In this document: positions 30,472-36,314 of the stretch, one piece after another
Position numbering within the stretch: the first letter of the stretch is position 1
How the letters are laid out: each line of letters opens with the position of its first letter
Assembly (NCBI RefSeq): GCF_003600645.1
Contig: NZ_CP032482.1
Coordinates: 1,426,001-1,490,000 of the forward strand
Length of the DNA: 64,000 nt
Source: Yersinia rochesterensis
Lineage (GTDB): Bacteria; Pseudomonadota; Gammaproteobacteria; Enterobacterales; Enterobacteriaceae
Direction of reading: 5' to 3'
Translations under genes and position numbers: made by a program
Notes under the pieces: generated by a model
The model's input: only the letters and a program-made list of their open reading frames with translations
Databases searched by the model: none
Told to the model about the DNA's origin: nothing

Positions 30472-30978
30472 ATGCAACTGAACAAAGTGCTAAAAGGGCT
30501 AATGTTGGCTTTGCCAGTTCTGGCTGTAGCGGCTTGTAGTTCCAACAAAAGCGCAAATAATGACCAATCTGGCATGGGCGCTGGCACTGGTACAGAAAAC
30601 GGCAGCAACCTGTCTTCCGAAGAGCAAGCGCGTCTTCAGATGCAAGAACTGCAAAAGAACAATATCGTTTACTTCGGTTTCGATAAATACGATATCGGTT
30701 CTGACTTCGCTCAAATGCTGGATGCGCATGCTGCATTCCTGCGTAGCAACCCATCTTACAAAGTTGTTGTTGAAGGCCACGCGGATGAACGCGGTACGCC
30801 AGAATACAACATCGCGTTGGGCGAGCGTCGTGCAAACGCAGTGAAAATGTATCTGCAAGGTAAAGGCGTTTCTGCTGACCAAATCTCTATCGTTTCTTAC
30901 GGTAAAGAGAAGCCAGCAGTACTGGGCCATGACGAAGCAGCATTTGCTAAAAACCGTCGTGCAGTTCTGGTTTACTAA
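30472..30978 (+). CDS. pal: Peptidoglycan-associated lipoprotein Pal
   Basis: Outer-membrane lipoprotein that holds peptidoglycan through its OmpA-like domain. 168 residues; the lipobox LAVAAC puts the lipidated Cys at 22. The OmpA-family domain contains [23 protein letters not shown] (diaminopimelate-binding region) and [12 protein letters not shown]. It follows tolB by 50 bases with AAAGGATCAAAGAG before the ATG. Confidence 0.98.
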
Positions 30979-30987
30979 GAGAATCGC

Positions 30988-31797
30988 ATGAACAGTAACT
31001 TCAGACGTCACTTAGTGGGTCTGTCGTTATTGGTTGGCGTAGCGGTCCCATGGGCCGCTACTGCCCAAGCGCCAATCAGTAATGTCGGCTCCGGCTCGGT
31101 AGAAGATCGGGTCACTCAACTTGAGCGTATTTCCAACGCTCACAGCCAACTATTAACTCAACTTCAGCAACAACTATCAGATTCGCAACGCGATGTAGAT
31201 AGCTTACGCGGTCAGATCCAAGAAAATCAGTATCAGCTCAATCAAATTGTTGAGCGGCAAAAACAGATCTATCAGCAGATGGATAGTCTGAGCGGTGGTC
31301 AGGGGGCGTCTACTTCAACGCCTGCGGCTGCTGGCGCTGCGGCAGATAATGCAACGGCTGGAAGTTCTGATGCTGCCACCGCAGGCGCAGCAGCGGCTAC
31401 AGCGGCACCTTCAGCAAGTACTGGTGATGAAAACAGCGATTACAATACAGCCGTTTCTCTGGCTCTTGAGAAAAAGCAATACGATCAAGCGATCACTGCT
31501 TTCCAAGGTTTTGTGAAACAGTACCCAAAGTCGACTTACCAGCCTAATGCCAATTACTGGTTAGGGCAGTTGTATTACAACAAAGGTAAGAAAGACGATG
31601 CTGCGTATTATTATGCTGTTGTTGTAAAAAATTATCCAAAGTCCCCAAAAAGTTCAGAAGCGATGTTTAAAGTCGGGGTGATCATGCAGGATAAAGGCCA
31701 AAGTGATAAAGCTAAGGCGGTTTATCAACAAGTGATCAAGCAATATCCCAACACTGATGCTGCTAAACAGGCACAGAAACGTTTATCTGCACTTTAG
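30988..31797 (+). CDS. cpoB: Cell division coordinator CpoB (YbgF)
   Basis: Periplasmic TPR protein that links Tol-Pal with PBP1B during septation. Signal peptide ending in WAATAQA near residue 27; a coiled-coil trimerisation region at about 35-105 (SVEDRVTQLERISNAHSQLL); a low-complexity Ala/Ser/Thr/Gly linker at about 108-150; then three TPR units to the end. 269 residues, slightly longer than the E. coli protein because of the linker. It begins nine bases after pal. Confidence 0.96.
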   Translation: MNSNFRRHLVGLSLLVGVAVPWAATAQAPISNVGSGSVEDRVTQLERISNAHSQLLTQLQQQLSDSQRDVDSLRGQIQENQYQLNQIVERQKQIYQQMDSLSGGQGASTSTPAAAGAAADNATAGSSDAATAGAAAATAAPSASTGDENSDYNTAVSLALEKKQYDQAITAFQGFVKQYPKSTYQPNANYWLGQLYYNKGKKDDAAYYYAVVVKNYPKSPKSSEAMFKVGVIMQDKGQSDKAKAVYQQVIKQYPNTDAAKQAQKRLSAL

Positions 31798-31806
31798 CTT
31801 TTTTCG

Positions 31807-31843
31807 AGCCCAGGAATTGGTCTTATTGACTAATTTCTGGGCT
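31807..31843 (+). terminator. Stem-loop after cpoB
   Basis: AGCCCAG (31807-31813) pairs with CTGGGCT (31837-31843), and AATT/AATT inside extends the stem. A short TT follows. It probably ends the tol-pal transcript before the tRNA promoter. Confidence 0.6.
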
Positions 31844-31890
31844 TTAGCGAGCGAAGAACAAGCAGTTAGACGTCTTTACAGAAATTTAAG

Positions 31891-31930
31891 TTGCACTGTG
31901 AAGAGAAATTAGTAATATATGCCGCCGTTG
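31891..31930 (+). promoter_or_regulatory. Promoter of the tRNA-Lys cluster with GC-rich discriminator
   Basis: TTGCAC (31891-31896), 16 bases, TAATAT (31913-31918), then the GC-rich stretch GCCGCCG typical of stringently controlled stable-RNA promoters. Transcription would begin about 65 bases before the first tRNA. The assignment is by motif only. Confidence 0.7.
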
Positions 31931-31989
31931 CCAAGACAACTTGTAAAACGTTAAAGCAACAGGAAATTATCGTTCGCAGTAAGCATAAT

Positions 31990-32065
31990 GGGTCGTTAGC
32001 TCAGTTGGTAGAGCAGTTGACTTTTAATCAATTGGTCGCAGGTTCGAATCCCGCACGACCCACCA
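31990..32065 (+). tRNA. tRNA-Lys (anticodon TTT), copy 1
   Basis: 76 bases with CCA encoded. The acceptor stem GGGTCGT pairs with ACGACCC. The anticodon loop CTTTTAA gives TTT (32023-32025), and the T loop is TTCGAAT. Identical to the other three copies in the window. E. coli carries lysT/lysW/lysY/lysZ/lysQ with valT and valZ at this same place between ybgF (cpoB) and nadA; no tRNA-Val is seen here. Confidence 0.98.
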
Positions 32066-32228
32066 TTATGAAGAATTATCAGGGTATCAAATCGTAGGAA
32101 TGAGAACCGTAAAGGTTCGAGTCGAGCGAAGCGAGACAGCAACGCGTAGCGTTGACCCGAAGGGCGAGTCCGCAGGACGAGTAATCCTGCACGACCGACC
32201 ATTATGTTATGAAGTACCGCATTACAGC
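32066..32228 (+). repeat. Spacer with interrupted tRNA-Lys 3' half, copy A
   Basis: Between tRNA copies 1 and 2. AAAGGTTCGA (about 32112-32121) is the T-arm start of tRNA-Lys, followed by about 64 bases of small hairpins. GTAATCCTGCACGACC(G)ACCA then completes a slightly mutated tRNA 3' end. There is no matching 5' half, so it is not a working tRNA. The same insert occurs in spacer B and in every unit of the downstream array. Confidence 0.8.
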
Positions 32229-32304
32229 GGGTCGTTAGCTCAGTTGGTAGAGCAGTTGACTTTTAATCAATTGGTCGCAGGTTCGAATCCCGCACGACCC
32301 ACCA
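32229..32304 (+). tRNA. tRNA-Lys (anticodon TTT), copy 2
   Basis: Identical over all 76 bases to copy 1, anticodon TTT at 32262-32264, CCA encoded. The 137-base spacer after it lacks the interrupted-tRNA element and contains TAAAAT (32375-32380) and a GTGGA/TCCAC stem, so a second promoter for copies 3 and 4 is possible but weakly supported. Confidence 0.98.
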
Positions 32305-32441
32305 TTCTTTCGCAGTTTGGTTTGAATGTAAGAAGTTGAAATCATCGCATAGATATTCCTCTTCCTGTTTTGTCTAAAATACCTCGAGTGGATTTATTCC
32401 ACACGACTGGCAGTGAATTGTCATCAAGCAGTAAACATAAT

Positions 32442-32517
32442 GGGTCGTTAGCTCAGTTGGTAGAGCAGTTGACTTTTAATCAATTGGTCGCAGGTTCGAA
32501 TCCCGCACGACCCACCA
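32442..32517 (+). tRNA. tRNA-Lys (anticodon TTT), copy 3
   Basis: Identical to copies 1, 2 and 4; anticodon at 32475-32477. The sequence just before it (AGTAAACATAAT) and the spacer after it nearly repeat those around copy 1, so copies 3-4 look like a duplication of copies 1-2. Confidence 0.98.
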
Positions 32518-32694
32518 TTATGAAGAATTATCAGGGTATCAAATCGTAGGAATGAGAATCGTAAAGGTTCGAGTCGAGCGAAGCGAGACAGCAGCGCGTA
32601 GCGTTGACCCGAAGGGCGAGTCCGCAGGACGAGTAATCCCGCACGACCCACCATTATGTTTTACAGTAAAGTATACGCAGTACCGCATTACAGC
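32518..32694 (+). repeat. Spacer with interrupted tRNA-Lys 3' half, copy B
   Basis: Nearly the same as spacer A, with few base changes, and the tRNA-like end here is intact: AATCCCGCACGACCCACCA follows the insert. It differs from the 13 array units mainly in the hairpin loop (AACGCGTAGCGTT against AACGCGCTAGCGTT) and in the bases before the T arm. Confidence 0.8.
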
Positions 32695-32770
32695 GGGTCG
32701 TTAGCTCAGTTGGTAGAGCAGTTGACTTTTAATCAATTGGTCGCAGGTTCGAATCCCGCACGACCCACCA
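32695..32770 (+). tRNA. tRNA-Lys (anticodon TTT), copy 4
   Basis: Identical to the other copies; anticodon at 32728-32730. Its CCA end at 32770 joins directly to the first 169-bp unit, so its own 3' end acts as the seed of the tandem array. Confidence 0.98.
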
Positions 32771-34967
32771 TTATCTCAAGTATCGAAATATCCCCCCAGA
32801 CTCAGAAGTTGCATACTACACAGCATCGTGTGGGTGAGATCCTGCGTTCAGGTTCGAGCCGAGCGAAGCGAGACAGCAACGCGCTAGCGTTGACCCGAAG
32901 GGCGAGTCCGCAGGACGAGTCATCCCGCACGACCCACCATTATCTCAAGTATCGAAATATCCCCCCAGACTCAGAAGTTGCATACTACACAGCATCGTGT
33001 GGGTGAGATCCTGCGTTCAGGTTCGAGCCGAGCGAAGCGAGACAGCAACGCGCTAGCGTTGACCCGAAGGGCGAGTCCGCAGGACGAGTCATCCCGCACG
33101 ACCCACCATTATCTCAAGTATCGAAATATCCCCCCAGACTCAGAAGTTGCATACTACACAGCATCGTGTGGGTGAGATCCTGCGTTCAGGTTCGAGCCGA
33201 GCGAAGCGAGACAGCAACGCGCTAGCGTTGACCCGAAGGGCGAGTCCGCAGGACGAGTCATCCCGCACGACCCACCATTATCTCAAGTATCGAAATATCC
33301 CCCCAGACTCAGAAGTTGCATACTACACAGCATCGTGTGGGTGAGATCCTGCGTTCAGGTTCGAGCCGAGCGAAGCGAGACAGCAACGCGCTAGCGTTGA
33401 CCCGAAGGGCGAGTCCGCAGGACGAGTCATCCCGCACGACCCACCATTATCTCAAGTATCGAAATATCCCCCCAGACTCAGAAGTTGCATACTACACAGC
33501 ATCGTGTGGGTGAGATCCTGCGTTCAGGTTCGAGCCGAGCGAAGCGAGACAGCAACGCGCTAGCGTTGACCCGAAGGGCGAGTCCGCAGGACGAGTCATC
33601 CCGCACGACCCACCATTATCTCAAGTATCGAAATATCCCCCCAGACTCAGAAGTTGCATACTACACAGCATCGTGTGGGTGAGATCCTGCGTTCAGGTTC
33701 GAGCCGAGCGAAGCGAGACAGCAACGCGCTAGCGTTGACCCGAAGGGCGAGTCCGCAGGACGAGTCATCCCGCACGACCCACCATTATCTCAAGTATCGA
33801 AATATCCCCCCAGACTCAGAAGTTGCATACTACACAGCATCGTGTGGGTGAGATCCTGCGTTCAGGTTCGAGCCGAGCGAAGCGAGACAGCAACGCGCTA
33901 GCGTTGACCCGAAGGGCGAGTCCGCAGGACGAGTCATCCCGCACGACCCACCATTATCTCAAGTATCGAAATATCCCCCCAGACTCAGAAGTTGCATACT
34001 ACACAGCATCGTGTGGGTGAGATCCTGCGTTCAGGTTCGAGCCGAGCGAAGCGAGACAGCAACGCGCTAGCGTTGACCCGAAGGGCGAGTCCGCAGGACG
34101 AGTCATCCCGCACGACCCACCATTATCTCAAGTATCGAAATATCCCCCCAGACTCAGAAGTTGCATACTACACAGCATCGTGTGGGTGAGATCCTGCGTT
34201 CAGGTTCGAGCCGAGCGAAGCGAGACAGCAACGCGCTAGCGTTGACCCGAAGGGCGAGTCCGCAGGACGAGTCATCCCGCACGACCCACCATTATCTCAA
34301 GTATCGAAATATCCCCCCAGACTCAGAAGTTGCATACTACACAGCATCGTGTGGGTGAGATCCTGCGTTCAGGTTCGAGCCGAGCGAAGCGAGACAGCAA
34401 CGCGCTAGCGTTGACCCGAAGGGCGAGTCCGCAGGACGAGTCATCCCGCACGACCCACCATTATCTCAAGTATCGAAATATCCCCCCAGACTCAGAAGTT
34501 GCATACTACACAGCATCGTGTGGGTGAGATCCTGCGTTCAGGTTCGAGCCGAGCGAAGCGAGACAGCAACGCGCTAGCGTTGACCCGAAGGGCGAGTCCG
34601 CAGGACGAGTCATCCCGCACGACCCACCATTATCTCAAGTATCGAAATATCCCCCCAGACTCAGAAGTTGCATACTACACAGCATCGTGTGGGTGAGATC
34701 CTGCGTTCAGGTTCGAGCCGAGCGAAGCGAGACAGCAACGCGCTAGCGTTGACCCGAAGGGCGAGTCCGCAGGACGAGTCATCCCGCACGACCCACCATT
34801 ATCTCAAGTATCGAAATATCCCCCCAGACTCAGAAGTTGCATACTACACAGCATCGTGTGGGTGAGATCCTGCGTTCAGGTTCGAGCCGAGCGAAGCGAG
34901 ACAGCAACGCGCTAGCGTTGACCCGAAGGGCGAGTCCGCAGGACGAGTCATCCCGCACGACCCACCA
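32771..34967 (+). repeat. 13 exact tandem copies of a 169-bp unit ending in the tRNA-Lys 3' end
   Basis: The span is 2197 bases, exactly 13 x 169, and the copies read as identical. Each unit begins TTATCTCAAGTATCG, contains CAGGTTCGA (start of the tRNA-Lys T arm), then about 65 bases holding the mirror-symmetric GAGCGAAGCGAG, the hairpins AACGC-GCTA-GCGTT, CCC-GAA-GGG and GTCC-GCA-GGAC, and then ATCCCGCACGACCCACCA, the exact tRNA-Lys 3' end. The units lie in line with the tRNA promoter and would be in the precursor transcript. E. coli tyrT has a comparable 178-bp repeat carrying the tRNA 3' end, which yields rtT RNA; function here is unknown. A 65-codon TTG-start frame recurs in each unit but shifts frame every time. 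Confidence 0.93.

Positions 34968-36314
<1,347 letters not shown>

Follow-up and report, generated by a model that had tools for sequence, protein, structure and literature searches.

A tandem array of 13 identical RtT-type units behind a tRNA-Lys gene of Yersinia rochesterensis, and the relation of RtT ends to the adjacent tRNA

Introduction

The closest described relatives of the repeat analyzed here are the RtT units of Escherichia coli K-12, one of which lies between tyrT and tyrV and three behind tyrV; a RefSeq gene of this strain, rttR, is annotated as 171 nt long with the CCA of an RtT unit at its 3' end. rtT has been linked to the stringent response. The frame tpr, which has 29 codons in K-12, presumably falls outside the Rfam definition of RtT. 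Variable rtT copy number is already in print, since rtT was described as a 175-bp variable-number repeat of which two Paratyphi A genomes differ by one copy (PMC2658671). A table in another paper marks rttR as holding a REP (PMC12306157); by general description, RtT and REP share the character of short palindromic repeated DNA outside genes, whereas the RtT elements checked here follow tRNA genes in the same orientation and have tRNA-derived ends. In the literature consulted, most of it outside subscription journals, RtT elements behind tRNAs other than tRNA-Tyr were not mentioned.

The present analysis concerns a window of 64,000 nucleotides of the Yersinia rochesterensis chromosome (contig NZ_CP032482.1, positions 1,426,001 to 1,490,000), in which an original prediction, made from the letters of the window, had described a tRNA-Lys gene prolonged into 13 exact repeats. 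The extent of this array, its family, its folding, the distribution of its relatives and the processes that may have produced it were investigated.

Results

ARAGORN called four tRNA-Lys(TTT) genes in the window, all on the + strand, at 31990..32065 (copy 1, also found by Rfam), 32229..32304 (copy 2), 32442..32517 (copy 3) and 32695..32770 (copy 4). The cluster is flanked by frames that, from gene order, we take to be cpoB-like and nadA-like, and upstream of it, at 30879-31017, the known cpoB/ybgF thermometer gave a strong match (RF02782, 171.5 bits). Behind copy 4, Tandem Repeats Finder reported a period of 169, 13.1 copies and a 100% match at 32753-34971, and cutting the window at 32771 + 169n yielded 13 units of one single sequence, the last of which ends at 34967. 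The span first proposed, 32695..34967, was accurate at its end, but its start takes in tRNA-Lys copy 4, and the repeat proper (+ strand) begins at 32771. The claim that each of 13 exact 169-bp units ends in the tRNA 3' end was borne out at 18/18 nt: the last 18 nt of copy 4 (32753-32770) recur in every unit, and the identity between gene and unit consists of these 18 nt inward from the CCA. The flank 3' of the array has 4 bases in common with the unit start. Open frames of up to 116 amino acids run through the repeats, according to the ORF list alone.

Unit 1 (32771..32939, + strand) consists of a spacer, an inverted 5' arm (32826..32834), the T-loop motif GGTTCGA (32851..32857), a 64-nt insert with mini-hairpins (32858..32921), whose site corresponds to tRNA T-loop position 58/59, and a tail (32922..32939) equal to the last 18 nt of tRNA-Lys; unit 13 occupies 34799..34967 on the same strand. 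The window units are without a tRNA body. All 13 units matched the Rfam family RtT (RF00391) at 107.9 bits, compared with a gathering cut-off of 45, and the likeness to the E. coli tyrT/rtT repeats that had been proposed is therefore right. Two diverged units in the spacers of the cluster also scored above the cut-off, one between tRNA-Lys copies 1 and 2 (32078..32201, + strand, 78.4 bits), whose 3' end differs from the tRNA end at 2/18 positions, and one between copies 3 and 4 (32532..32653, + strand, 79.4 bits). As here, each K-12 unit ends with the 3' end of its host tRNA, and the three tails behind tyrV are 178 bp apart compared with 169 bp in the window; the two loci differ in that the host is tRNA-Tyr with four units in K-12 and tRNA-Lys with 13 identical units in Y. 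rochesterensis. The Tpr peptide was rejected as a conserved product of the family: among 299 RtT matches no conserved frame ran from the start-codon region, and 138 were without a start by the motif used.

The Y. rochesterensis chromosome, assembled as one contig of 4,437,953 bases, contains 13 exact copies of the 169-bp unit, all of them in the window array. A Val-Val-Val-Lys tRNA cluster is followed by two further copies at 88%, and there are weaker relatives. With 18 RtT matches, Y. rochesterensis ranked first among 25 genomes of the genus; the next had 11, and none was without a match. The description of the array as much more expanded than in E. coli and kept uniform agrees with these counts; 13 units without a difference suggest recent expansion or homogenization. 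Among the arrays compared it was both the longest and the most uniform, others reaching up to 10 units in Photorhabdus, where one array lies 83 bases from the edge of its stretch and so has at least 10. Identity of every unit could also be expected if the copy number were an artifact of assembly and the true array were shorter, and several RtT clusters in draft genomes of the genus do lie at contig ends. Such an artifact is very unlikely, however, given the single-contig chromosome, the 6 and 10 distinct sequences held by Photorhabdus arrays of 10 units and the presence of six RtT units in a complete E. coli genome.

Within the array unit, TCGTGTGGG (32826-32834) pairs with CCCGCACGA (32924-32932, inside the tail), and this 9-bp outer helix between 5' arm and tRNA tail conforms to RtT; in the two spacer units the longest unbroken outer helix has 5-6 bp. 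From its letters, the 5' arm can be read as the tRNA T-arm and acceptor in inverted orientation. It had been proposed that 14 tails in a read-through transcript would compete for the one GGGTCGT of copy 4. This proposal was contradicted and, as stated, had to be given up, since every unit carries its own complementary arm and need not compete for the tRNA 5' end.

The inserts were compared in alignment A1, which holds 33 of 46 inserts and in which four rows stand one column off in the first helix, counting against pairing. The analysis showed that 10 of the 13 hairpin pairs change on both sides, that 93.0% of cells are paired (80.0% when shuffled and at most 43.9% with the partner slid) and that the covariation score is 0.365, compared with 0.145 for shuffled inserts; by hand count, G-U occupies 5 of about 397 paired cells. 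Judged from this alignment, the insert mini-hairpins are kept by compensatory change; together with that of the arm, this change shows that folding is under selection in some form, something a purely neutral repeat would not need. Folding energy was rejected as weak evidence, being only mildly unusual for 126 nt (z -2.08) and 169 nt (z -0.90) and not unusual for the insert folded as RNA (z -0.21) or DNA (z -0.75).

A loop census revealed C(GNA)G in 292/403 triloops and C(GNNA)G in 106/155 tetraloops, the third base of the latter being a purine in 50 and a pyrimidine in 56. A recount with longer stems gave C(GNA)G in 134/206 triloops in largely the same sequences and in 61/85 in a broad sample. 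Loops of both types give exceptionally stable DNA mini-hairpins, and the insert loops, which are without purine bias at the third loop base, agree with a DNA mini-hairpin no less well than with an RNA loop. A variant unit with another 5' part, beginning GGCGAGTATC or GGTGAGTCT, was observed at loci L194, L223 and L224, and in Pectobacterium (L056, L109), and looks like a fusion of two insert ends.

For the comparison of element ends with host tRNAs, RtT elements of Yersinia and of a set of named loci were collected with an nhmmer profile of 11 seeds at a cut of 40 bits. The 299 matches represent 255 distinct sequences, some named loci being the same sequence as a genus genome; the named loci had been found by a pattern fixing the T-loop motif and the insert start, so that conservation at these two places is by choice. 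An uninterrupted tRNA call lay upstream of 265/299 matches, and over 18 nt the tail was identical to the upstream tRNA end in 178, with one difference in 37, two in 7 and at least three in 43. Among the 255 distinct sequences, tails were identical in 143, differed at one or two positions in 39 and at three or more in 41, and were not comparable in 32.

Of 404 element calls overall, 246 were distinct, and 113 distinct elements could be anchored for a test of the inverted arm. Their arms agreed with the reverse complement of their own tail at 5.20/8 positions, a value reached in 0/1000 permutations (mean 3.67/8, maximum 4.04). Within single hosts, the observed agreement was reached in 0/1000 permutations for Lys, 0/1000 for Gln, 6/1000 for Tyr and 40/1000 for Ser. 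It was not seen within Pro, where three elements were available and 839/1000 permutations reached it, and Arg elements matched their own inverted tail no better than other tails (11.7 vs 12.1 of 25). Two earlier, unanchored arm tests were blunt, the own tail ranking strictly first in only 47/167. In the outer arm, G-U was found at 29/133 (G sites) and 19/149, compared with A-C at 82/639 (C sites) and 9/113; these counts come from related sequences that are not independent, and the excess of G-U is suggestive only. These comparisons show that tails are mostly the host tRNA end and that the inverted arm follows the host on the whole, with Arg and Pro as exceptions.

The search of other genomes that the original prediction had proposed yielded relatives behind many tRNA types. 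At E <=0.001, the Rfam model matched 9/59 genomes of the order and 17/94 of the class, Y. rochesterensis included, and most matches outside its own family were weak. In this sample, 32/42 elements carried the exact last 18 nt of the upstream tRNA and three differed by 1-2; of the remaining seven, five had at least three differences and two were without a tRNA in the stretch. The hosts of the 35 matching elements were tRNA-Gln (two anticodons), Ser (four), Tyr, Glu, Pro, Lys and Val. A pattern composed of GGTTCGA, CCCGNAGGG and ATCC was found in 63/185 genomes of the class and 21/120 of the phylum, some of the latter outside the class and standing as pattern matches alone; the reversed pattern gave one match in each sample, and both counts include Y. 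rochesterensis and some matches resembling coding sequence. Among the matches listed, 20/30 class-pattern loci held an element with the exact tail of its upstream tRNA, one of the 20 being Y. rochesterensis and several repeating loci of the order and class sample, and these loci added the hosts Arg(tcg), Arg(ccg) and Glu(ctc). In five others (L287, L288, L290, L299, L310) the tail was not an exact match, four (L295, L301, L306, L311) had no tRNA upstream and were taken as chance, and L291 starts at a contig end.

One candidate element call lies behind tRNA-Gly. RtT motifs were also observed in two contigs labeled Saccharibacteria and one labeled Chryseobacterium (L115, L130, L131); the element at L131 follows tRNA-Pro and has an insert resembling those of Citrobacter, which makes misbinning or contamination likely.

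These loci make RtT one corner of a wider family with the same plan behind Lys, Tyr, Arg, Pro, Ser, Gln, Glu and Val tRNAs, namely an inverted copy of the tRNA 3' end, GGTTCGA, mini-hairpins and a direct copy of the same 3' end. As an alternative, RtT could be a minimal, gene-less derivative of a site-specific element that, in the manner of genomic islands, inserts mid T-loop and places a second tRNA 3' end at its distal border; the arrays would then be tandem integrations. The Dehalococcoides ssrA islands are reported to have this geometry, with mid T-loop insertion, a 20-bp direct repeat of the 3' end of the gene and tandem arrangement (PMC3146451). A direct repeat of the tRNA 3' end does lie at the far border of the unit, and in the elements read the T-loop position at which the insert ends is the same for all hosts, a regularity that is partly built into the search patterns. 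The RtT unit differs from these islands, however, in having neither integrase nor cargo, for which 169 bp leave no space, in its inverted copy of the tRNA end and in its many hosts; both of its ends match many tRNAs, unlike those of an integrase with one core. At blastn sensitivity, none of 50,697 phage records and 12/72,556 plasmid records matched, 6 of the 12 being longer than 1 Mb, and carriage by phages or plasmids was rejected on these counts. An integrative origin is improbable.

Some relatives carry the insert within a tRNA gene. In Photorhabdus, an intact tRNA-Lys is followed by tandem tRNA-Lys units with the insert exactly between GGTTCGA and ATCC (L095, L123), and 51 distinct units had a tRNA body while four were without. 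Some Yersinia copies have a whole tRNA-Lys body, several of these lacking the final CCA, and some Pectobacterium copies have the body from the anticodon arm onward. Such arrangements indicate recombination between tRNA genes and RtT units around the T-loop motif. Units with a whole tRNA-Lys body and the insert at T-loop position 58/59 resemble tRNA genes interrupted by introns, but in the two Photorhabdus loci an intact tRNA-Lys stands beside them and their bodies decay: acceptor, D and anticodon stems were all kept in 29/69 interrupted bodies (3/72 were set aside as too divergent), whereas 27/28 intact Photorhabdus tRNA-Lys genes were unchanged. Splicing is thus neither needed nor indicated, and a spliced T-loop intron was rejected.

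ARAGORN calls such interrupted units tRNA-Lys of 73 nt (L095, L123, L178 and other loci), so annotated tRNA counts may be inflated. Separately, the T-stem GCAGG/CCCGC, with an A51-C63 mismatch, occurred in all 100 tRNA-Lys calls with a standard T-loop from the Yersinia loci examined, the window included (86 from genus genomes and 14 from named Yersinia loci, some being the same gene twice). Most relatives have CCTGC in place of CCCGC; the A51-C63 form was also present in Serratia (2/5), Brenneria (2/6) and the one Edaphovirga gene. C63 of tRNA-Lys forms a perfect pair with the RtT arm, a hint of conversion in the direction from RtT to tRNA.

Units of the arrays read extend from one tail to the next. 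The tyrT region was matched in 5375/5426 complete E. coli genomes, and among the matches listed (60 of 5391 records) the loci of K-12 and three other strains were opened. RtT units numbered 0 in strain 3150, 4 in K-12 and 6 in 22F46. What follows each tRNA in strain 3150 is homologous to the stretch beyond the corresponding RtT tail in K-12, and the limits of both empty sites fall exactly on the tRNA tail and the RtT tail. WP4-W18-ESBL-08 has a different stretch after a single tRNA-Tyr and is no clean case. We infer that the empty sites of 3150 are losses rather than an older state, and that recombination or slippage between identical tails explains the copy changes, and by extension the growth of the Y. 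rochesterensis array. On a further reading, of low probability, arrays like the 13-unit one would represent the amplified state.

In 39/166 cases an intrinsic terminator separated the tRNA from the first element (13/66 named loci, 9/58 Yersinia, 17/42 of the broad sample), compared with 2/840 shuffles of the broad sample; the 39 refer to first elements only, and homologous loci of related species are counted apart. All nine Yersinia cases lie behind tRNA-Arg. Among later units, the terminator was repeated with the unit in 6/77. An element behind such a terminator would not be made with its tRNA. No terminator separated tRNA and element in the other 127/166, and in the window a simple scan of 31750-35300 gave no terminator-like site, including directly after 32770, where a terminator had been named as an argument against the original prediction. 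Transcription through the array is therefore possible, and with it a small RNA from the 13 units.

If so, processing might yield 13 CCA-ended RNAs, each about 160 nt long, with a part in regulation or as decoys for tRNA-processing enzymes. This would suit the RF00391 score, the CCA end of the annotated rttR, the terminator-free stretch around the array and the compensatory changes of arm and insert, as well as a tandem GA motif in RtT RNA for which another study reports extra covariation (PMC7657543). A functional RNA of this kind is nonetheless unlikely: relatives lie behind intrinsic terminators, E. coli strains have 0, 4 or 6 copies, the tpr frame is not kept and outer-arm wobble only modestly exceeds A-C mismatch. 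In one E. coli study, RttR did not alter biofilm (97 +/- 9%) or any other trait that was scored (PMC4606813), and in another study rttR values ranged from 0 to 0.47 in six RNA-seq samples (PMC10651509). The elements behind terminators and the RtT-free E. coli loci weigh against taking an RNA role as the general explanation. A role of the array in tRNA maturation was not supported, and the suggested role in the starvation response was likewise unsupported, its basis being the stringent-response link of rtT known from the literature.

Discussion

The array is probably a tandem amplification of an RtT-type element that exists chiefly as a DNA-level repeat and changes copy number through exchange between identical tRNA tails. 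The ends of such an element match the 3' end of the adjacent tRNA: an inverted copy of T-arm and acceptor is followed by a short loop, GGTTCGA and the mini-hairpin insert, and the far end repeats the tRNA directly, reaching from T-loop position 59 to the CCA, so that element and tRNA share an 18-bp repeat. Through unequal exchange or slippage of these tails, blocks of spacer, element and tail would be gained or lost as a whole, and in Y. rochesterensis this may have given 13 copies recently enough for no mutation to have arisen. In tRNA operons that lack a terminator, as at this array, the element may also be transcribed and cut to CCA-ended RNAs like the annotated rttR. As DNA, the element would be chiefly neutral or selfish.

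With relatives behind many kinds of tRNA genes in many bacteria, the array of Y. rochesterensis resembles a labile repeat with ends that follow the adjacent tRNA more than it does a special starvation RNA. The findings also carry a warning for annotation, since tRNA finders, as seen with ARAGORN, count interrupted units as extra genes, and draft assemblies can break at arrays. Until now, rtT has been regarded as a curious by-product of a single tyrosine tRNA operon in E. coli. Should the survey hold, rtT would be one case of a widespread tRNA-linked repeat with host-following ends, and the questions for the family would become how a short gene-less element gains the ends of many tRNAs and whether the DNA, the RNA or both are selected.
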